This document shows positions 69 to 17,609 of a stretch of DNA of 24,281 nt, piece by piece. The stretch is from positions 1 to 24,281 of IMG/VR virus record IMGVR_UViG_3300027608_000148. The stretch is one strand, 5' to 3'. The notes beneath the pieces were generated by a model, which saw only the letters and a list, made by a program, of their open reading frames with translations, made no database searches and had not been told where the DNA came from. Numbering within the stretch: the first letter of the stretch is position 1; every line of letters starts with the position of its first letter. A program made the translations under genes and the position numbers. Source of the DNA: a virus.

Positions 69-691
69 AGATCGAAAAAATACCAACCGAGAAGCTCATT
101 CCCTACGCTCGAAATGCAAAAAAGCATGACGCCGCGCAGGTTTCAAAACTCGCCGGATCCATCCGCGAGTTTGGCTTCAACAACCCGGTGCTGATCGACA
201 AAGACAACGGCATCATCGCCGGTCACGGTCGCGTGATGGCTGCGCAAAAGTTGGATCTAAAGGAGGTTCCTTGCATCCGGCTCGATCATCTTACGGACAC
301 CCAGCGCCGAGCCTACATCTTAGCCGACAACCGACTTTCAGAAATTGGCGGTGGATGGGATGAGGAAATGTTAAAGAATGAACTAACGTCGTTGCTGGGT
401 GATGGCGTTGATATTGCTGGGCTTGGATGGGATGACGGATGGAGTGAAGAGGAGGAAAAGGAGAATGAAATTTCGGAAAAGATTTTCGAGCAGTCTGTGC
501 AACTTGATCCAGCAAAGGAGTTCATTGTAATTATTTGCGAACCGAGTGAATACGAGGAAGCAAAAAGCATTCTTGATTTGAAGCAGGTTCGTCGTGGTGG
601 TTACAAAGAAGGAAGCGCATTTGATGCCGTGTCATTTGAACGCGCTATAACATTCAACAGATTAAAACATGCAATTCGCAATACCAAGTAA
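65..691 (+). CDS. ParB/Srx-fold nuclease-like protein
   Basis: This 208-residue protein has a ParB N-terminal-like domain in about residues 1-110. The signature is visible: an opening KIPTEKLIPYARNAKKH strand and turn, a conserved NNPVLID segment, then GIIAGHGRVMAAQKL (the GxxxGHGR motif that binds nucleotide in ParB-like enzymes) and a following VPCIRL strand. Residues about 130-145 are acidic, and the C-terminal 60 residues are not recognised. Phage members lack the centromere-binding domain of chromosomal ParB and usually sit with DNA methylases, DNA-modifying enzymes or terminases. Here it directly precedes a DNA-glycosyltransferase-like gene (23-base overlap) and then the small terminase. 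A role in DNA modification or processing before packaging is inferred, not shown. The second half is visibly A/T-richer than the first. Confidence 0.8.
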   Translation: MKIEKIPTEKLIPYARNAKKHDAAQVSKLAGSIREFGFNNPVLIDKDNGIIAGHGRVMAAQKLDLKEVPCIRLDHLTDTQRRAYILADNRLSEIGGGWDEEMLKNELTSLLGDGVDIAGLGWDDGWSEEEEKENEISEKIFEQSVQLDPAKEFIVIICEPSEYEEAKSILDLKQVRRGGYKEGSAFDAVSFERAITFNRLKHAIRNTK

Positions 692-1388
692 AGGCCGCGC
701 TGGAAGAACGAAGACGCAGGGAGTCTTAAGCAATGCCGTTTTTTATGTGCCAGAGAATGAGTCGGAGGCATATAAAAAAGCAATGCCGAGATCGCAGGTT
801 GTTGCTGTCCCGTTGGAAGTTAAAGGCATCACGCAAACAAGGAATTTCATTTTGAGAGAGGCGAAGGATCGCTGGATCGTAATGGTGGACGATGATATAA
901 AAACGCAGGGATGGGTGCAAATGCTAGAGAATAGGACAAAGCACAGAAAATTAAAACAGGAAGATTGGGAGAAAATTTGCATAAGATTGTTTGAAGCAAC
1001 GGAGGATTTAGGGTGGAAGATTTGGGGGGTAGCAACACAGAATGCGGCAAGAAGCGTTTACCCATACAAGCCGATATTGTCTAGGAGTTACATCACGGCT
1101 TCATTTATGGGGATCGTGAACGATGGGACTTATCCGTTTGATGAATCTTTTCCCGTAAAAGAAGATTACGAAATTGGACTGAGACATATAAAAAATTTTG
1201 GCGGAGTAATGGCCGCGAGATTTTGTTACTGGGAAAACAGCCATTGGACTGATGACGGAGGGTGCAAGGATTATCGAAGTGGTAAAATGGAATTGGATTG
1301 CATAAATAAGTTGGTCAAAAAATATCCCGGAATGATTAGGAAAATCACTAGGGGCGGATCGAGTTACTCAATCAGCTTGGAGTTTTAA
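669..1388 (+). CDS. TET-associated-type glycosyltransferase (TAGT-like)
   Basis: The 239-residue product looks like the TET-associated glycosyltransferase family (TAGT) of phages, GT-A-like enzymes that attach sugars to hydroxymethylated pyrimidines in phage DNA. Features seen are an opening IPSKGRAGRTKT motif (residues 5-16), VFYVPENE (24-31), the GITQTRNF segment (53-60), a metal-binding-type WIVMVDDDI strand (69-77, DDD at 74-76) and a late VKEDYEIGLRH motif. The start is fixed by the N-terminal motif, although it lies 23 bases inside the ParB-like gene and has no Shine-Dalgarno. No TET/JBP oxygenase is in the window; one could lie upstream. Arginine codons are AGA/AGG in 13 of 16 cases, against 2 of 15 in the next gene, suggesting separate origin. 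The substrate could also be protein or another nucleotide. The GT assignment is firm; the DNA target is inferred from the family. Confidence 0.72.
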   Translation: MQFAIPSKGRAGRTKTQGVLSNAVFYVPENESEAYKKAMPRSQVVAVPLEVKGITQTRNFILREAKDRWIVMVDDDIKTQGWVQMLENRTKHRKLKQEDWEKICIRLFEATEDLGWKIWGVATQNAARSVYPYKPILSRSYITASFMGIVNDGTYPFDESFPVKEDYEIGLRHIKNFGGVMAARFCYWENSHWTDDGGCKDYRSGKMELDCINKLVKKYPGMIRKITRGGSSYSISLEF

Positions 1389-9735: not shown

Positions 9736-10593
9736 ATGGATGTCATCGAAGGCGTATCAATAATTTCAATAGGCGAAGCGAAAGGCCACGGGCTTTATGT
9801 TGACGAGCAGACTTTGATGGAGGTCAAAGAATGCGCGGAGTCATACAAGGGCGGCGTAAAGGTCAACCTCGACCACGGCGCAGGCATTAAAGACATCGTC
9901 GGCTTCGTAAACAATTTCCGCATCGTCGGATCGCAACTTCTCGGCGATCTCAACCTCCTGCAAACATCGCCCATGCACGATTACGTCTTGGAGATTTCAA
10001 GCAAACTCCCCGACACGTTCGGGATCAGCATCGCATTCAGCGGGCCGATCCGCGAAGTGGATGGAATGAGCTTCGCGAGTTGCGCGGAACTTTACAGCGC
10101 CGATCTCGTGCAAACACCCGCTGCAAATGCGACCGGCTTGTTCTCATTCACGGCCAAGCAAGTTGACAAATTTTTCAAACAAATGGAAGACGCACAAATC
10201 GAAATCGAACCAAAAGAGGACGAGATCAGCATCGCTGACATCGTTTCTCGTCTCGCCGCTCTTGAAACCGCTTTTGGCGACTACAAGAACAAAATGGAAA
10301 TGCCAGCCGCAGAGCCAGCCGCAGAGCCAATGAAAGAAGAGATGGCCGCTGAACTCAGCGCAATTTCCAAGCTCGAAGCCAAGCTCGACACGATCATCAG
10401 CAACTTCGGAGCCGCCCCAGTTAAGGCTTCGGTAGTCGCAGAAGAAAAAGCCGAAGAGAAATTCGACTTGAAAGCGATCATCACCCAGAAGACCGAAGAA
10501 CTCGGCAGCCGCACCGAAGCAATTCGATTCGCAATGCGTAACCATCGCGAAGCCTACATTGAAGCCCGCGACAACAACCAACTCAACTTTTAA
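9736..10593 (+). CDS. Prohead serine protease with scaffold-like C-terminus
   Basis: The 285-residue protein combines a prohead protease of the GPO/S78-like group (about residues 1-140) with a scaffold-like C-terminal half. A candidate catalytic set is His47 in VNLDHGAG, Ser98 in TFGISIAFSG and Asp123 in YSADLVQTPAAN, the classic order for this clan. The rest is acidic and helical, with an Ala/Glu/Pro repeat (PAAEPAAEP) near residues 190-197 and a predicted coiled coil (AISKLEAKLDTII), as in P2 gpO-type scaffold proteases. It should build the procapsid core, cleave itself and other head proteins and then leave. It precedes decoration and capsid genes. A 19-base gap upstream contains TTGACA. 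Confidence 0.8.
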   Translation: MDVIEGVSIISIGEAKGHGLYVDEQTLMEVKECAESYKGGVKVNLDHGAGIKDIVGFVNNFRIVGSQLLGDLNLLQTSPMHDYVLEISSKLPDTFGISIAFSGPIREVDGMSFASCAELYSADLVQTPAANATGLFSFTAKQVDKFFKQMEDAQIEIEPKEDEISIADIVSRLAALETAFGDYKNKMEMPAAEPAAEPMKEEMAAELSAISKLEAKLDTIISNFGAAPVKASVVAEEKAEEKFDLKAIITQKTEELGSRTEAIRFAMRNHREAYIEARDNNQLNF

Positions 10594-10606
10594 TCCCAAC
10601 TAATTT

Positions 10607-10966
10607 ATGGCAACACAAAACGACAACGGCATTCGGAGCTTTAGCTTCGCATCCGCGATCACCGCGAACACGCTCGTCAACATATCGGGCGCAAACGCTG
10701 CGCAAGCAGCATCAACCGGCGCAAATGCTATCGGAGTCGTCCAGAATGACGTCGCCGCTGGTGCTCAAGGCGCTGTCAAACTTTTCTTCCCATCCCAGTT
10801 CGGCATCGTGTCCGCGATTGTGACAGCCGGTAATACCGTTTTTGCGGTGACCAGCGGTCTGATCCTCGGCACATACGCCAACGCTTCGACCGTCACTCTT
10901 GGAGTTGCGATCAACAGCGGCGTTGCTGGCGACGTCGTCGAATACGTTCCTAAGTTCAACCAATAA
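10607..10966 (+). CDS. Head decoration protein, DUF2190-like
   Basis: This 119-residue, Ala/Gly/Val-rich protein is nearly all short beta strands: RSFSFASAITANTLVNIS, AIGVVQNDVAAGAQGAVKLF, GNTVFAVTSGLILG, ASTVTLGVAINSGVAGDVVEYV. It matches the DUF2190 pattern, in which the conserved G.V...aaGe...V.l reads as IGVVQNDVAAGAQGAVKL. These proteins sit directly before the major capsid gene and decorate or stabilise the expanded capsid. The size is right for the family. The upstream leader is A/T-rich and has no Shine-Dalgarno sequence. Confidence 0.72.
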   Translation: MATQNDNGIRSFSFASAITANTLVNISGANAAQAASTGANAIGVVQNDVAAGAQGAVKLFFPSQFGIVSAIVTAGNTVFAVTSGLILGTYANASTVTLGVAINSGVAGDVVEYVPKFNQ

Positions 10967-10978
10967 TTTAACACTACT

Positions 10979-11932
10979 ATGGCACTCTCATACACAACCA
11001 TCCGCGCTGATATTGCGCAGGCCGTTTTTGAAGGTCTTTCCAACAAAAACAATTTGTTCATCGGCACAGAAGTAATGCCCGTGTTCTCCTCAGACGTTCG
11101 CTCCGGCGCATATCTGAAGCTGAACCTCGGCGACTCCGAAGCCCTCAACGACGACGTTCTCAAGATCGCCGCTGGTGCTGGATATCCCCGCACAAGCCGC
11201 CGTTTCACGAGCGACTCGTTCGACGCTATCGAATACGGTCTTGAAGAGGTTCTTCCTGACTCCAACCGCCGCGATCTCGACAGATTTTTCGACACCGAAG
11301 TGAACATCGCCGCGATGCTCCTCCGCCAGATCCAAGTCTCCCACGAGGCCCGCGTTGCTTCCGCAGCATTCGCCGCCAACGGACTGACAGCGATCAGCGC
11401 CAGCGCAGCCTACAGCGACGCGAACATCACATCGTTCGACGTTCCCGGTGACGTGGCTCAAGCAAAGCTCGAACTCGCCAAATATGGCGTTCTTGCAAAC
11501 ACCTTGATCATGTCTATGCCTTTGTTTGAGCGCATCCGCCGCTCCGCTAAGGTTCAAAACCAGTTCTTCGGCATCGTTCCTTCGGATCAAAGCCGTCTCC
11601 TTAGCGAAGGCGAAGTTGCCGCCGCTGTCGGAGTCGACCGCGTTCTCGTAGGCCGCGCACCAAAGAACACCGCCGCAAAAGGTCAGACCTATGCCGGTGG
11701 GTTCATCTGGAGCAACACCTATATGGCCCTCGCCAACACGGTTGGTGGAGAGTTCTCCGGTGGTGGATTCGGTCGCACGATCGTATGGGCTGCTGATAGT
11801 CCCGTGCCTTTCGTTTCCGAAACCTATCGCGACGAAGCTCGCCGCGCCGACGTTCTCCGCGTTCGTCAGAACAGCGCCGAGAAAGTCATCGACGGTTCCA
11901 GCATCATCCGTATCACAACCGGATACGTGTAA
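10979..11932 (+). CDS. Major capsid protein
   Basis: The 317-residue product follows the protease and decoration genes and is itself followed by a terminator, the usual place and setting for the most abundant virion protein. Sequence features fit an HK97-fold capsid protein: an early YLKLNLGDSEALND, RRFTSDSFDAIEYGLEEVLPDSNRRD spanning the likely E-loop and spine region, VSHEARVASAAF helix, a domain start AKLELAKYGVLANTLIMSMPLFERIRRS, then VLVGRAP and YMALANTVGG. The fold is inferred from position and these features; no diagnostic catalytic motif exists. Codons are strongly biased to C-ending forms, consistent with high expression. Confidence 0.85.
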   Translation: MALSYTTIRADIAQAVFEGLSNKNNLFIGTEVMPVFSSDVRSGAYLKLNLGDSEALNDDVLKIAAGAGYPRTSRRFTSDSFDAIEYGLEEVLPDSNRRDLDRFFDTEVNIAAMLLRQIQVSHEARVASAAFAANGLTAISASAAYSDANITSFDVPGDVAQAKLELAKYGVLANTLIMSMPLFERIRRSAKVQNQFFGIVPSDQSRLLSEGEVAAAVGVDRVLVGRAPKNTAAKGQTYAGGFIWSNTYMALANTVGGEFSGGGFGRTIVWAADSPVPFVSETYRDEARRADVLRVRQNSAEKVIDGSSIIRITTGYV

Positions 11933-11955
11933 GATTCCCCGCAAGTAAGCATCGG

Positions 11956-11990
11956 AAAAGCCACCTCGAAAGGGGTGGCTTTTTTGTTTT
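11956..11990 (+). terminator. Intrinsic terminator after the capsid gene
   Basis: A perfect 10-bp stem, AAAAGCCACC at 11956-11965 paired with GGTGGCTTTT at 11974-11983, encloses an 8-base loop and runs into TTTTTTGTTTT. It lies 23 bases after the capsid stop. It probably trims or attenuates transcription so that capsid mRNA exceeds that of the glycosyltransferase genes downstream. The A-rich 5' arm makes it potentially active on the opposite strand too. Confidence 0.88.
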
Positions 11991-12016
11991 TGTTGACATA
12001 TACTTCAAGAGTAAAC

Positions 12017-13690
12017 ATGAAACAAAAACAGAAGCTAGTCGCAGGCTTAATTTGCGGCAACGAAGAGCCGCGCATCGCTCGATGCGTTAAGTCACTCCAA
12101 CAGATATGCGACGAGATCGTTATCGTTCGCGCGATCGGAGCACTCAAGCCAGATCGCACGCTAGAAATAGCAAAGGAACTAGGTTGCCATGTTGACGAAT
12201 ATCTCAACTCTCCGCTAGTCGCCGACTGGGAACATCTCGACAATTTCGGCGAAGCCAGGAACAAAGCATTTGCGAAAGCATACGAGCTAGCCGGAAAAGA
12301 AGGCTGGGTAATGTGGGCAGACTGCGACGACATCATTGAACCGGCAATGGTCGCGCCTACGCTCGCCGCGCTTGAAGAATGTCCGCCGGAGCAGGACTGG
12401 ATCTTGACCGACTACGTTATTCCGGAACAAGGGAAACGCGCACCACGCGAGCGTTTCTTTCGTTACAAAACAGCGTGGTGGCATCGCCCCGTTCATGAAA
12501 ACGCGCAGCCAACGAAGGACGTTCAAGTGTATATGCGGCGCGACTTGGAGATCACGCACAAGCCGCCGCTATGTCATCGCAACAGCAGCGAGCGCAACCG
12601 CCGCATATTGATGCACCAAGACCGGATGACGTCGCACTTCAAGTTTTACCTACACTATGAGAACTTCATCGCAGGCAACAAGGAACTCGCCGCGAAATAC
12701 GGCTCCGAAGCCTTAGCCTTGAGCGATCTGGATGGCGTTAATCGCTACGAGATTCTTTTAAACTGCGCCAACATTACGAGCGGGGAAACATCGCTCAACC
12801 TAGCACGCAAGGCCAAGGAGCTTGAGCCGAAGCGCCGCGAAGCCTACGGACTGGAGGCAAGCATTCTGCTTGATGATAAAAAATACCAAGAAGCGCTGAA
12901 AGTGGTAGAAGAAATGCTCGAAGTGCCGACACCGAAGTTCCCACAATGGACGCATCGAAAGGAATGGTATGGGTGGAAAGGCGATCAACTCTACGCTTGG
13001 GTGCTTCGCTTACTCGGACGCAACGAAGACGCCGAAGAGATCGAGCGCGAGACGTTGGCGGGATCGAACAAGCCTAAGATATCACTAGTCCACGCAACGC
13101 GAGGGAGGCCGGTAGAAGCCGTTCAATGCATGACGCTGTGGCTTTCCCGCGCAACGCACCCAGAACGTGTAGAGCATATCTTCGCGGTCGATCACGACGA
13201 CGAGACAGCAGACATTCTAAAACGCTTCCGATCTGTGACGCAAAAAGACCAAGGGTATTCAGTCGGAGCTTGGAACTTAGGAGCGGCCAAGGCGTCGGGG
13301 GATATTATTATACAACTTTCGGACGACTGGGAATGTCCTCCAGGGTGGGACGAAATGATAGAAAAGCGACTCGACATTTCAAAACCTCAAATTCTGCGGA
13401 TTTCGGACGGATATAGAAAAGACGAATTACTATGCATGGCGATCTTAACGTGTAAATATTATGAGCAAAATGGACTATTTAACCCAAGATTTCGAAACGT
13501 CTATTCGGACACCGACTTCACCTTTCGTGCCGCGAAAAATGGGGCGATTGTGGACGCTCGTGATATTAGCATCGTTCATCACCACCCGTTTTTTGAAGAG
13601 CGTCCGCTCGATGCGACATATCAGCGCGGCAACGATCCGGCGGAATATGAAAGAGCGAAGGCAATTTTTGAAGAACTCCACCCGAAATGA
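12017..13690 (+). CDS. Two-domain glycosyltransferase (GT2-like, TPR-like middle)
   Basis: This 557-residue protein holds two GT-A-like domains. The first (about 1-180) has LVAGLICGNEEPRIARCVKSL, DEIVIV, the conserved HLDNFGEARNKAF and a metal-site WVMWADCDD (Asp at 102, 104, 105), as in SPO-type family 2 transferases. Residues about 220-345 are paired helices like TPR units (NRYEILLNCANITSG, REAYGLEASILLDDKKYQEALKV). The second domain (about 353-557) shows ISLVHATRGRP, AWNLGAAKASGDII and LSDDWECPPGW. The frame opens at 11975, but that lies in the terminator, so the Met at 12017 is preferred. A TTGACA ends 18 bases before it. It opens a glycosyltransferase cassette; the acceptor (virion protein, DNA or host glycan) is unknown. 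Confidence 0.85.
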   Translation: MKQKQKLVAGLICGNEEPRIARCVKSLQQICDEIVIVRAIGALKPDRTLEIAKELGCHVDEYLNSPLVADWEHLDNFGEARNKAFAKAYELAGKEGWVMWADCDDIIEPAMVAPTLAALEECPPEQDWILTDYVIPEQGKRAPRERFFRYKTAWWHRPVHENAQPTKDVQVYMRRDLEITHKPPLCHRNSSERNRRILMHQDRMTSHFKFYLHYENFIAGNKELAAKYGSEALALSDLDGVNRYEILLNCANITSGETSLNLARKAKELEPKRREAYGLEASILLDDKKYQEALKVVEEMLEVPTPKFPQWTHRKEWYGWKGDQLYAWVLRLLGRNEDAEEIERETLAGSNKPKISLVHATRGRPVEAVQCMTLWLSRATHPERVEHIFAVDHDDETADILKRFRSVTQKDQGYSVGAWNLGAAKASGDIIIQLSDDWECPPGWDEMIEKRLDISKPQILRISDGYRKDELLCMAILTCKYYEQNGLFNPRFRNVYSDTDFTFRAAKNGAIVDARDISIVHHHPFFEERPLDATYQRGNDPAEYERAKAIFEELHPK

Positions 13691-13944
13691 GTGATACACC
13701 AGAGACGAATAGCATTATCCGTAATGCTCAAGCATCCGATCACCCGCCGACTCGCTTAGCAGCAACGCTAACCGTGAAATGTGAGAAACTGGAGCGCGAG
13801 CGCGACGAGGCACGAGGGGTTTTAAAACGCATCGCTCACGCAAGCATGAATGCACGACACAAAGAAGAAGACTATGCAGAATGGGAAAAGGCAGTAGAAT
13901 CACTTCAAGGCATCTGCGAAGAAAAGAATTTTATAAATGAATAA
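13687..13944 (+). CDS. Small coiled-coil hypothetical protein, 85 aa
   Basis: The 85-residue product starts on an ATGA overlap with the two-domain glycosyltransferase gene and overlaps the next gene by 8 bases. It begins MSDTPETNS, a start typical of a widespread class of small phage proteins, and continues with a charged heptad-like helix (CEKLERERDEARGVLKRI) and a second helix (YAEWEKAVESLQGI). No enzymatic motif is seen. It could be a helper or simply a passenger in the glycosyltransferase cassette. Confidence 0.65.
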   Translation: MSDTPETNSIIRNAQASDHPPTRLAATLTVKCEKLERERDEARGVLKRIAHASMNARHKEEDYAEWEKAVESLQGICEEKNFINE

Positions 13945-14521
13945 AGACGTCACTCTCATCGTATTTGAAGGCTTAAGGTCTAGGCACGAACAAAGCGGGA
14001 AATTATTTAAACACCTTTGTGGCTTGGGTGGATTTGGCGACGCTGTTTACATCGCTGAAGACTGCACGTATCAGCAAGCGATGCACTGGGAACTGGGTCG
14101 CTTTGCCGACTATATCGACACTTCCCATGCGCTCATTTGCACGCACGACGGGTTCATTGCAAACCCTCACTTGTGGGATGATTCATGGCTTGAATACGAC
14201 CTGATAGGAGCGCCTTGGCCTGCGTGTTGGAACGTCGGGCATCGCGTCGGCAATACCGGATTCACGCTCCAGAGCATGAAATTCCTACAAATGGCAGCGA
14301 AGGCCGAGTCACTTTGGAAGGGCGAGGCAGGGGATGTTTTCTTGTGTCGCACAATGGAGCAAGGCTTTCGAGATAACGGCATAAAATATGCGCCGGTAAG
14401 TGTAGCAGCGGCGTTCTCTTGGGAGCATTACATTCACGAAAACACGGCAGGGCCGGATCGCTCATTCGGATTTCACGGCTGGGTCGCAGGGAAAACGCGA
14501 GAACAATACTATACGTTTTGA
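13937..14521 (+). CDS. DUF5672-type putative glycosyltransferase
   Basis: The 194-residue protein matches DUF5672, a group linked to nucleotide-sugar transferases. Seen in order: VTLIVFEGL at the first strand, AMHWELGRFADYIDTSHALICTHDGF (51-73 region, ending HDGF), WLEYDLIGAPW (84-94), RVGNTGFTLQS (103-113), DVFLCR (133-138), FSWEH (160-164) and SFGFHGW (176-182). Nearly the whole family core is present and the length is normal. Context strengthens a glycosyl-transfer role: GT2-like and GT-B-like genes flank it. Its stop TGA overlaps the TTG start of the next gene. Confidence 0.78.
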   Translation: MNKDVTLIVFEGLRSRHEQSGKLFKHLCGLGGFGDAVYIAEDCTYQQAMHWELGRFADYIDTSHALICTHDGFIANPHLWDDSWLEYDLIGAPWPACWNVGHRVGNTGFTLQSMKFLQMAAKAESLWKGEAGDVFLCRTMEQGFRDNGIKYAPVSVAAAFSWEHYIHENTAGPDRSFGFHGWVAGKTREQYYTF

Positions 14522-15180
14522 ACATCCTAATTGTTTATCATTTGCGACTCGGAGATATCGCTCGGTGCTTGCCGATAGCGAAACACTTCGCGGATCAAGG
14601 CCACGATGTAATGTTTGAATGCCTGCCGGAGTATCACGGTCTTTTTGAAATGGTGGACTACTGCAAACCGCTTTACCCACAGAACGATCACAGCGGCTTT
14701 CACCGCGTCATCAACCTGCAAATTTGGCCGGACTTACACGAAGACTTTTGTGCGAGCGAGCTAGGCTGGAGTGATTACGTTTACGGACTTTTCCCAGAAG
14801 GCAAGGACATAGACCGGCAGATCGTGCTCAACTCTCCGGCAATAGTCACGCCACCCGAACTCAAGTCATGGGTTCTTTGTTTTCCGACCGGATACAGTCA
14901 GGATAAAAAGATCGACGTGCGGGACGTCATTACCGTCGCGCACCAAGTCGCCAACGGCAGGCCCGTTCTTTGCGCTGGAAAGGCCGCCCACGGCATGGCT
15001 GAGTTTGAGAGCATAGAATATATGTGCGCTTACATTCGGGACGCGCAAGAGGTTGTCACGATCAACACTTCGACCAGCATCCTTGCATCGGCACTCCGCA
15101 AAAGCTGGGTTCATATTTCGGACAGCCCCAAGCACGACTTCACGCATGCGAACCAGCGCCGTGTTGAGCGCAAGTTTTGA
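14518..15180 (+). CDS. Short GT-B-type glycosyltransferase (GT9-like)
   Basis: The frame extends up to 14419, but its early part shadows the DUF5672 gene. The natural start is TTG at 14518, in a TTGA overlap with the preceding stop, giving 220 residues that begin at the first strand (NILIVYHLRLGD). This strand and following helix (ARCLPIAKHFADQGHDVMFE) look like the N-terminal Rossmann half of heptosyltransferase-type GT-B enzymes, and EVVTINTSTSILASAL near residue 180 resembles their acceptor-side NTST/D-x-x motif region. The protein is shorter than usual GT9 enzymes (about 320-350 residues), so the domain set is reduced. The family is moderately certain; donor and acceptor are unknown. Confidence 0.65.
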   Translation: MNILIVYHLRLGDIARCLPIAKHFADQGHDVMFECLPEYHGLFEMVDYCKPLYPQNDHSGFHRVINLQIWPDLHEDFCASELGWSDYVYGLFPEGKDIDRQIVLNSPAIVTPPELKSWVLCFPTGYSQDKKIDVRDVITVAHQVANGRPVLCAGKAAHGMAEFESIEYMCAYIRDAQEVVTINTSTSILASALRKSWVHISDSPKHDFTHANQRRVERKF

Positions 15181-15195
15181 CGCATCGTCCCCTTT

Positions 15196-15504
15196 GTGGG
15201 ACTGCTTGATATATTTACAAACGACCTAAGCGCGATCATGAACGAGTTGCCGCTTGCGGTCACGTTCGGAGAGCGCAATTTTCTTGCGAACCGGACGACA
15301 TACCGGCGCGACAACAGCCTGACAGATGGCGGATTCATGGACTCCGCATCTATGACCATAACAGCGATCTACGACGCTTTCGTTCAGACCATTTCACTAG
15401 GTGACGTGCTCGTCATCGGCGGCAGGCGCTTTCGCGTAACGTCCGCCGAGCTTTCCCAAGACGCTGTCAGCGTCGATTTCACGCTAGAGGACATTAACAA
15501 ATGA
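15196..15504 (+). CDS. Head-tail joining protein (gpFII-like)
   Basis: The 102-residue product starts at GTG 15196. Its N-terminus (GLLDIFTNDLSAIMNELPLAVTFGER) and end (LGDVLVIGGRRFRVTSAELSQDAVSVDFTLED) fit the compact beta barrel of lambda gpFII-like attachment proteins, in which GD.l.i.g..y.V...........f.Le is typical. An internal ATG at 15238 is an alternative but would remove the typical first helix. It should link the portal/gpW complex to the tail. A TTGACG lies 13 bases before the GTG, and the first base run follows the preceding TGA. It is separated from its usual partners by the glycosyltransferase cassette. Confidence 0.65.
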   Translation: MGLLDIFTNDLSAIMNELPLAVTFGERNFLANRTTYRRDNSLTDGGFMDSASMTITAIYDAFVQTISLGDVLVIGGRRFRVTSAELSQDAVSVDFTLEDINK

Positions 15505-17609
15505 GCATCTTTTTCCCAGAAGACGAGGGGCGCGAAGTCCCTGAGGTAGACTATCAACCAATACTCCGCACCGAATTAGTGACAGGCGCAGCGGGGCCGA
15601 CCGGAAGCCAAGGGGCTAAAGGCGACACGGGCGCGACAGGCGCGGGAGTGGTAACAGGCGGATTTACAGGGCAAGTTCTCGCAAAGAAAACAAATACCGA
15701 CTACGACACCGAATGGGTGACGGGTGGTGGAGGTGGAGCGGCGATCTGGGGCGGCATTGCTGGAACGCTCTCGAACCAGACCGATCTGCAAACGGCTCTT
15801 GATTCAAAGCTTTCTTCGGTAACGTGGGGGAGCATTACCGGCACGCTCGCAAACCAGACCGACCTACAAAGTGCACTTGACGCCAAGGCGCTCAAGATAA
15901 CAGCGATAACGGCAGGCACAGGACTAACAGGCGGCGGTGATCTTTCCGCTTCGCGCACGATCTCGATGTTGGCGGACGTTCCTGCGGACTCGCTAAATTT
16001 CAATACGGCAGCGACCGAGGCGAATGCCGTTGGAAAGATGTTCTGGAATGCAACCGAAGGCGCTCCGCAGGTCGGGCTTGCAGGCGGCAACGTGCAGTTG
16101 CAAATGGGGTCAATGCTTGTCGCCTACGTTCGCAATGCAGAGGCGACAACGCTCAACAAGGGCGAGGTAGTCTATCTTTTCGGCGCAACAGGCAACCGCG
16201 CAACTGTAAAAAGAGCATCTAATGCCGCTGATTCAAGCTCGTCCAAAACCATCGGACTTGTTGCCGAAAGCATCGGCGCAAACCAAAACGGATTCATAAT
16301 CACGCAAGGCGTTCTCGACAAACTCTCGTTAGGTTCGCCATTCGCGGATGGCGATTCCGTATATCTTGGAAACGCCGCAGGAACATTTACCCGAGTTAAG
16401 CCAACTCAACCGAATCACATCGTTTTTATCGGCGTTGTAGAACGTGCAAATGTTGGCAACGGCCAGCTATACATCCGCCCGCAAAACGGATTTGAGCTTG
16501 AGGAACTGCACGACGTTCTCGTCACTTCGCCAGCGAACAACCAGACGATTCTCTGGAACTCGGCGGTCACGCTTTGGACTAACTCAACGCTAACCGTCGG
16601 CACGATAAGCGGACTCTCAGCCGATCTCAGCGGAAAGGTCGCATCGGTCGGAGCCACATCGCCAGTTGTTTCGAGCGGCGGAACAACTCCGACGATCTCG
16701 ATGCCGGTAGCGACCGCGACAACAAATGGATATCTCGCATCGACGGACTGGACTACGTTTAACGAAAAAGCGAAAACGACCGACGTTCAGATTTTTACAA
16801 CGAGCGGAACGTGGACAAAACCAGCAGGCGCAAAAAGCGTCGATGTTAACATCATTGCTGGTGGCGGCGGCGGAAGCTCGGGGCGCGTAAACGCAGGGCA
16901 AGCAGGCGGGGGCGGTGGTGCTGGCGGCAATGTAACAAATCGCGCTGGCATTCCAGCCAGCATACTTGGCGCAACAGAGACCGTTACCGTTGGAGCAGGG
17001 GGAACTGGAGGAGCGGCAACGAACATTGCAAACGCGCAAAATACATTTGGGACAAACGGAGGAAATTCTAGTTTCGGAGCAACCCCGTGGGTTTTTGCGA
17101 GTGCGGGTAATGGTGCCGCAACCTCAAATGGGGGGGCAGGAGGCGCAGGCGGACGGGGATTTTTCATTGGAGGTGCTGGCGGAAATGGCGGGGGGCAAGC
17201 GACTCCATCGGCGGGGGTATCTCCAACTGCACCGCAAATCGCTGCGGGTGGCGGCGGCGGGGGTGGCTCATGCTCAACGGCGGGTCAATTTTACGCAGGG
17301 GGAAATGGACTTCCAAGCTTAGGCTATCTAGCGTCTGGCGGACAAGCCGTTGGCGGAGCTACCGCTGGAGCAGCGGGAGCTAATGGAGGCGGCATCAATG
17401 CCGTCATTGGTGCGGGCGGGGGTGGTGGCGGTGGGGCTGGCAACGCAACAGGAAACGCTGGTGCAGGCGGGAACGGATCAGTCTATGGCGGCGGCGGTGG
17501 TGGCGGTGGATGCTGTGGATGGATACCAGGGACAAGCGGACAGACCTACTCATCAGGCGCGGGCGGAAACGGAGAACAAGGCGTTGTCATTGTGACTACA
17601 TATTTTTAA
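15501..17609 (+). CDS. Tail fibre/adhesin with collagen-like and glycine-rich domains
   Basis: The 702-residue protein has a short anchor, a collagen-like stretch GPTGSQGAKGDTGATG (about residues 32-47) and two 26-residue repeats beginning WGGIAGTLSNQTDLQTAL and WGSITGTLANQTDLQSAL (about 83-134). A beta-rich shaft follows (about 200-420), with a further repeat-like KVASVGATSPVVSSGGTTP. From about residue 432 (TTSGTWTKPAGAKSVDVNIIAGGGGG) to the end lies a glycine-rich domain with many GGGGG runs, as in polyglycine adhesin tips. It ends GEQGVVIVTTYF, a strand closing such domains. The role is receptor contact at the virion surface. It starts on an ATGA overlap and may fold with help from the next small gene. 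Confidence 0.88.
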   Translation: MSIFFPEDEGREVPEVDYQPILRTELVTGAAGPTGSQGAKGDTGATGAGVVTGGFTGQVLAKKTNTDYDTEWVTGGGGGAAIWGGIAGTLSNQTDLQTALDSKLSSVTWGSITGTLANQTDLQSALDAKALKITAITAGTGLTGGGDLSASRTISMLADVPADSLNFNTAATEANAVGKMFWNATEGAPQVGLAGGNVQLQMGSMLVAYVRNAEATTLNKGEVVYLFGATGNRATVKRASNAADSSSSKTIGLVAESIGANQNGFIITQGVLDKLSLGSPFADGDSVYLGNAAGTFTRVKPTQPNHIVFIGVVERANVGNGQLYIRPQNGFELEELHDVLVTSPANNQTILWNSAVTLWTNSTLTVGTISGLSADLSGKVASVGATSPVVSSGGTTPTISMPVATATTNGYLASTDWTTFNEKAKTTDVQIFTTSGTWTKPAGAKSVDVNIIAGGGGGSSGRVNAGQAGGGGGAGGNVTNRAGIPASILGATETVTVGAGGTGGAATNIANAQNTFGTNGGNSSFGATPWVFASAGNGAATSNGGAGGAGGRGFFIGGAGGNGGGQATPSAGVSPTAPQIAAGGGGGGGSCSTAGQFYAGGNGLPSLGYLASGGQAVGGATAGAAGANGGGINAVIGAGGGGGGGAGNATGNAGAGGNGSVYGGGGGGGGCCGWIPGTSGQTYSSGAGGNGEQGVVIVTTYF
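15747..15899 (+). repeat. Two 78-base repeat units in the fibre gene
   Basis: Two in-frame units, starting at the tgg codons at 15747 and 15825, encode W-GG/S-I-x-GTL-x-NQTDLQ-x-ALD-x-K. They are diverged at the DNA level but keep identical spacing, so they are coding repeats of a shaft module and not a recombination hotspot. Confidence 0.75.

Follow-up and report, generated by a model that had tools for sequence, protein, structure and literature searches.

A glycosyltransferase cassette follows the major capsid gene

We analysed a 24,281-base IMG/VR virus record (IMGVR_UViG_3300027608_000148), here called the window, and in particular a group of four overlapping genes at positions 12017-15180 that includes predicted glycosyltransferases (GTs). 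The window is a fragment of a phage genome and carries a ParB-like gene, the GT-like gene TAGT, and genes for terminase subunits, portal, head proteins, the major capsid protein (MCP) and tail proteins. Records of its relatives reach 33-41 kb, and the whole gene order is held in two of approximately 36-38 kb. The source is a small tailed freshwater phage infecting bacteria. The four genes, referred to below as the cassette, are bordered by the terminator of the MCP gene on the 5′ side and by the next head gene on the 3′ side (Table 1).

A preliminary description of the window had given the gene order, the coordinates and the coupling of the four genes (ATGA, an 8-base overlap and TTGA), all of which agreed exactly with our analysis. 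It had also proposed searching viral metagenomes for co-occurrence of this gene order, which was found in the IMG/VR relatives, where homologous cassettes lie in the head-gene module and not in early regions. The enzyme genes are kept in tens of these relatives with identical overlaps and are under strong constraint, with ratios of nonsynonymous to synonymous substitution (dN/dS) of 0.02-0.05, which argues that the cassette is not a chance arrangement.

Table 1 Coordinates of the cassette and of associated features in the window
Feature	Position	Strand	Remarks
Major capsid protein (MCP)	10979..11932	+	phrog_1005 major head protein, E=5.4e-27; constant upstream partner, likeliest acceptor
Intrinsic terminator, MCP/GT_A interval	11953..11986	+	Hairpin plus T-run; sequence differs in relatives
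TTGACA hexamer	11993..11998	+	Abuts terminator T-run on the 3′ side, 24 nt before GT_A
GT_A	12017..13690	+	GT2 domain ~1-185, TPR-like helices 190-350, second GT-A-type domain 352-545
cc_B, coiled-coil open reading frame (ORF)	13687..13944	+	Optional, module-shuffled; ATGA overlap with GT_A
DUF5672 protein	13937..14521	+	DUF5672, E=1.5e-16; 8-base overlap with cc_B; exchangeable middle slot
GTB_D, 220 amino acids	14518..15180	+	TTG start, TTGA overlap with DUF5672 gene; GDIxRxLPIA motif
Putative head-tail connector / head closure protein	15196..15504	+	Phage_attach, E=0.02; phrog_82 (Hc1), E=0.048; downstream cassette border
TAGT, GT-like gene outside the cassette	669-1388		Family match

GT_A resembles polypeptide glycosyltransferases

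The first cassette gene, GT_A, matched the Pfam family Glycos_transf_2 (GT2; E=1.1e-16, 61.7 bits against a curated cut-off of 23.3) as well as phrog_13126 and phrog_14945, the latter covering a second GT-like domain at residues 353-546 (E=4.3e-11). Two acidic motifs of the D-x-D type, WADCDD (residues 100-105) and SDD (435-437), were invariant in GT_A and in its near and distant relatives. The predicted structure had a predicted local distance difference test score (pLDDT) of 72.9 and was weak toward the C-terminus. Residues 1-291 of this model aligned with SunS and ThuS over 265-270 residues with VIA-align Z scores of 20-22 and a root-mean-square deviation of about 4, clearly above the Z of about 15 reached by single-domain GT-A structures. 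The profile of the GT_A family also matched GmaR (9.2e-11), SunS (4.2e-06) and TPR proteins. By model and profile, GT_A consists of a GT2 domain followed by a TPR-like helical domain, the arrangement of SunS, ThuS and GmaR. These are polypeptide glycosyltransferases, and a protein acceptor is therefore favoured for GT_A. Against the SunS equivalog TIGR04195, GT_A scored 13.9 bits, with a cut-off of 350; judged by its sequence, it is not a member of the SunS family and would at most act like SunS. We propose that GT_A is a putative protein glycosyltransferase that also serves as the first extender of the glycan.

GT_A is linked to the capsid gene across relatives

A first scan of IMG/VR gave 135 relatives of GT_A, 80 of which were retrieved, and deeper scans reached relatives whose MCP and GT_A were approximately 35% and 40% identical to those of the window. 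Wherever the contig permitted, close relatives had the order MCP, GT_A, (coiled coil), DUF5672, GTB_D, connector. With duplicates removed and at least 1.1 kb of upstream sequence required, MCP was found upstream of GT_A in 109 of 110 testable loci, within 600 bp in 99 of them. The sole locus without it (L334) is a bacterial metagenome-assembled genome (MAG) contig carrying a 31% relative. A scan of genome contigs for hosts yielded no matches at first and two betaproteobacterial MAG contigs in a second round (62% and 31% identity to distant GT_A); these could derive from phages and have entered the bins by chance. The gap between MCP and GT_A is enlarged to roughly 770-1,300 bp in about ten relatives, and in L198 (3446-4129) an HNH endonuclease gene lies between the two.

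The reverse scan, which started from MCP, covered 58 distinct loci and found GT_A downstream in all 56 testable relatives. Fifty-one loci were scored with GT_A, two were too short, and five were scored by the script as lacking it; these five do contain a GT_A match, in an open frame that begins upstream of the cut-off, and are counted among the 56. The linkage persists at MCP identities down to approximately 35%.

Among named phages, the best GT_A match was in podovirus ctKR88 (MW202524), which encodes a 27% identical GT2+TPR enzyme two genes after its MCP. This gene is followed by one annotated as gtA, with function unassigned, and one annotated as YqgM-like, which matches Glycos_transf_1. 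The MCP of ctKR88 has no detectable similarity to that of the window. In ctf1B273, a GT_A relative is located between terL and the portal gene, with another annotated glycosyltransferase nearby. GT2+TPR enzymes thus recur in the head-gene clusters of otherwise different phages. No named-phage relative of MCP, GTB_D or cc_B was present in INPHARED.

The genes downstream of GT_A are exchangeable

The slot downstream of GT_A is occupied by different genes in different relatives, most of them for enzymes of glycan-related types. The window carries DUF5672 and GTB_D, and other types consist of Methyltransf_23 and GTB_D; Methyltransf_24, GT2 and GTB_D; FkbM, GT2 and GTB_D; a lone small gene without a Pfam match; a lone GT2-like gene; or a GT2-Methyltransf_24 fusion with Gly_transf_sug (DXD glycosyltransferase). 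In L236 (5329-7486), the middle slot contains a Transket_pyr gene and, by eye, E1-alpha-like and alcohol-dehydrogenase-like genes beside the GT_A homologue, possibly enzymes for sugar precursors.

In a tree built from the MCPs of 82 phages, the module types require 12 changes for 11 labels, or, by hand correction, 11 for 10 when the label of L235, an artefact of ORF picking, is mended. The DUF5672 and Methyltransf_23 types were each found in both deep MCP groups. Exchange is also evident between pairs of phages. L142 and L190 are 92.9% identical from the portal gene to the end of GT_A, then carry 1.3-1.9 kb of unrelated sequence, and identity resumes at 89% from approximately 20 bp ahead of the connector gene. 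L198 and L203 differ by the gain or loss of a GT2 gene between the methyltransferase gene and GTB_D.

Accessory genes of the cassette differ in their constancy

The preliminary description had counted the coiled-coil protein, cc_B, as a member of the block. It is optional, being present in 33 of 62 loci and absent in 29, and where it is absent GT_A and DUF5672 overlap directly by ATGA. Its occurrence in about half of the relatives, together with the shuffling of its segments between loci, led us to reject it as a core component. No family match was found for cc_B in Pfam or PHROG. The protein (TPETD... LERERDEARE...) is built of shuffled segments, with relatives in L027, L054 and L146, and similar genes occur upstream of o4262 in L146.

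The third gene scored 61 bits against DUF5672 (gathering cut-off 24.4). Bacterial DUF5672 genes adjoin rmlC and GT17 genes or a GT4-type gene, or are fused to TPRs next to a GT4-type gene, and these neighbourhoods support, without proving, a possible glycosyltransferase activity of the family. The last gene, GTB_D, shows 33-97% identity and closes most cassettes; it is a possible glycosyltransferase. A weak PseG-like match (E=0.054) and a faint GT9-like motif were detected, but a GT9 assignment was not supported when its profile was compared with two GT9 proteins of bacteria, which gave no significant result. Three glycosyltransferases of different types had been predicted earlier. The two-domain GT2-like enzyme is borne out by Pfam and PHROG, and the DUF5672 family by Pfam, but "short GT-B" for the fourth gene was a guess, as its only family hit is the weak PseG-like one.

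A terminator and a TTGAC sequence separate capsid and enzyme genes

In a pattern scan, the score of the terminator between MCP and GT_A was not above shuffle expectation. A hairpin plus T-run nevertheless recurs at this place in relatives despite different sequence. The terminator probably lowers expression of the enzymes relative to the capsid. On its 3′ side, 108 of the 115 distinct sequences between MCP and GT_A contain TTGAC, though the hairpins differ. At the other border, the 15-nt spacing between GTB_D and the connector gene is constant in relatives. The "head-tail joiner" of the preliminary description has only a weak match (Table 1).

Within the window, TTGAC (at 11993, 4242, 9717, 15177 and 18206) is located 19-24 nt upstream of 5 of 32 gene starts, where 0.33 would be expected within 18-26 nt (P approximately 2.6e-5, with the range chosen post hoc). 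A clear Shine-Dalgarno sequence is missing for most window genes, nor is a -10 box recognisable at 17 nt.

The cassette is consistent with glycosylation of a virion protein

The gene order and families, the fold resemblance of GT_A, the constraint on the enzyme genes, the MCP linkage seen in all testable relatives and the exchange of the module together point to virion-protein glycosylation with a swappable glycan module, with the capsid as the likeliest acceptor. We assign this reading a probability of roughly 0.64. As would be expected of phage virion glycosylation, phage-encoded glycosyltransferases are linked here to virion genes. The cassette sits among the capsid genes, and the terminator would hold enzyme levels under those of the capsid. 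GT_A would move a sugar from a nucleotide sugar to a virion polypeptide in the host cytoplasm, its TPR-like domain would hold the acceptor polypeptide, and its second GT domain would attach the following sugar. DUF5672 and GTB_D would then extend or cap the glycan, for which relatives would substitute methyltransferases or other glycosyltransferases. MCP is favoured as the acceptor because it is the constant neighbour of GT_A. Enzymatic activity, a protein acceptor, MCP as the specific acceptor and the identity of the sugar are what we infer, and the biological role may be particle shielding or altered adsorption. Glycosylation of virion proteins had also been suggested in the preliminary description; MCP linkage, head-module position and the likeness of GT_A support that direction, and the modification itself is presumed.

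Several points weigh against this reading. The GT_A model was built on nine sequences, and its second domain is of low confidence. The model of the DUF5672 protein (pLDDT 47.7) was too poor for fold comparison, and GTB_D, with no match in Pfam, PHROG or PDB, has no recognised fold. The locus counts are derived by homology and include related phages, and do not represent independent events. Adjacency to MCP could reflect shared late timing and not the acceptor, and these phages have other GT-like genes, such as TAGT, whose target may be different.

Within virion glycosylation, the acceptor might be a protein other than MCP, a variant that we hold to be somewhat unlikely. Candidates are a 119-amino-acid head protein encoded at 10607 and a collagen-like, Gly-rich virion protein (15501-17609), both encoded close to the cassette. 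The latter begins with Gly-X-Y triplets, and sequence of this type is glycosylated in some other organisms. The gene differs in length among relatives. Several relatives that retain GT_A, for example L078, L189 and L193, gave no blastp match to it, whereas MCP is constant.

Alternatively, late in infection the enzymes might modify the host surface (lipopolysaccharide, capsule or some other surface glycan), blocking superinfection or releasing progeny from receptors. Envelope glycan loci, too, typically carry GT2, methyltransferase and DXD glycosyltransferase genes, and DUF5672 genes of bacteria sit in loci of that type. We nevertheless consider this explanation unlikely: membrane-type segments are absent from the cassette proteins and TAGT (19-residue hydropathy at most 1.29), GT_A resembles polypeptide enzymes and not those using lipid-linked sugars, and constant linkage to the capsid gene is unexpected for a host-directed function. 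Lysogenic serotype conversion in particular is unlikely, because no tyrosine integrase (PF00589) was found in 14 long relative records, with all 14 control genomes positive; serine integrases were not searched for. The absence of membrane-type segments likewise speaks against a serotype-conversion gtr locus, which would carry a membrane flippase or membrane GT.

Glycosylation of phage DNA on a modified base, in the manner of T4 and for evasion of nucleases, is very unlikely. TAGT does lie beside the ParB-like gene and belongs to a family named for its association with TET-type DNA modification, and one relative, L087, has at 10115-10789 a gene for a DNA-modification protein of the Mom family (PF25680, E=2.8e-39). 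However, no member of the thymidylate synthase/hydroxymethylase family (PF00303) was detected in 14 long relative records, with controls positive in 9, the cassette adjoins MCP and not replication genes, and GT_A resembles enzymes that act on polypeptides. A search for Tet_JBP (PF12851) gave no matches in 16 records and likewise none in the controls. A cargo (moron) locus without a fixed target, at an insertion-tolerant site after MCP, would fit the exchange of the middle genes and the HNH endonuclease gene inserted nearby in some relatives, but is highly improbable given that GT_A is never missing in the 56 testable MCP relatives, that gene coupling is precise and that dN/dS is low.

If the cassette does glycosylate the capsid, the relatives may form a widespread freshwater lineage of tailed phages with a dedicated capsid-glycan locus, in which a constant SunS-like enzyme with two catalytic domains after MCP is combined with an exchangeable, coat-diversifying module. 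We put this forward tentatively, at somewhat less than even odds. Such a locus would be the phage equivalent of O-antigen polymorphism in bacteria, with surface sugars that differ from one phage to another as O-antigens do among bacteria, and would switch glycan type between otherwise near-identical phages. Virion glycosylation, which to our knowledge is known for very few bacterial viruses, would then be a core, capsid-linked trait in a common freshwater lineage. It is predicted that capsid mass shifts track the module, and DUF5672 would gain a testable function.

Other genes in the window and its relatives

TAGT, a fourth GT-like gene missed by the preliminary description, follows the ParB-like gene (65-1388 for the two), immediately 5′ of terS. 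This slot is variable, holding TAGT in G002 and G004, a different 317-amino-acid gene in L142 and nothing in G001, and it is possibly a second glycosylation locus. In L146 (290-1504), a PAPS-reductase-like gene fused to DUF3440 is located upstream of the portal gene. Long ORFs antisense to MCP (L060 and L076), like the inverted and chimeric record G010, were judged artefactual and excluded.

Comparison with known glycosylation systems

SunS and ThuS, the glycocin S-glycosyltransferases, share with residues 1-291 of GT_A a GT2 domain followed by TPR-like helices. Identity is only approximately 17%, however, and GT_A carries a further GT domain at its C-terminus, lies among head genes and has no glycocin precursor gene identified with it. 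The Listeria flagellin O-GlcNAc transferase GmaR modifies flagellin with GlcNAc, and recognition of the protein substrate has been proposed for its TPR domain (PMC9638930). It shares the GT plus TPR architecture, with a profile match spanning the GT domain, but in place of the second GT domain of GT_A it has a linker plus an anti-repressor domain (PMC9638930).

Among phage proteins, PHROG 13126 (beta-1,4-glycosyltransferase) and PHROG 14945 (glycosyltransferase) match the two halves of GT_A. Neither PHROG is assigned a target, and the window has the two fused in a single protein. The locus in ctKR88 is similar in that a GT2+TPR gene two positions after MCP precedes an unassigned gene and a further GT gene, but the last domain is GT-B (Glycos_transf_1) in the ctKR88 enzyme and a second GT2 in GT_A.

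Virion glycosylation has been described in mycobacteriophages Che8 and Rita, among others (Freeman et al. 2023, via PMC11256854), with glycans reported on the C-termini of the capsid and tail-tube proteins (Freeman et al. 2023, via PMC12619734). The undescribed system proposed in the preliminary description is therefore too strong a claim: phage-encoded glycosyltransferases are common to both cases, and capsid glycans are the outcome that we propose for the window. In the Maravista genome, the GT genes are located toward the 3′ end (PMC11256854), whereas the cassette is next to MCP, and a tblastn search with GT_A gave no mycobacteriophage match. The literature searched, which excluded most subscription papers, gave no account of a cassette that is linked to MCP and has an exchangeable GT/methyltransferase module. 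The cassette would be a variant of known phage virion glycosylation, with linkage to MCP and a swappable module.

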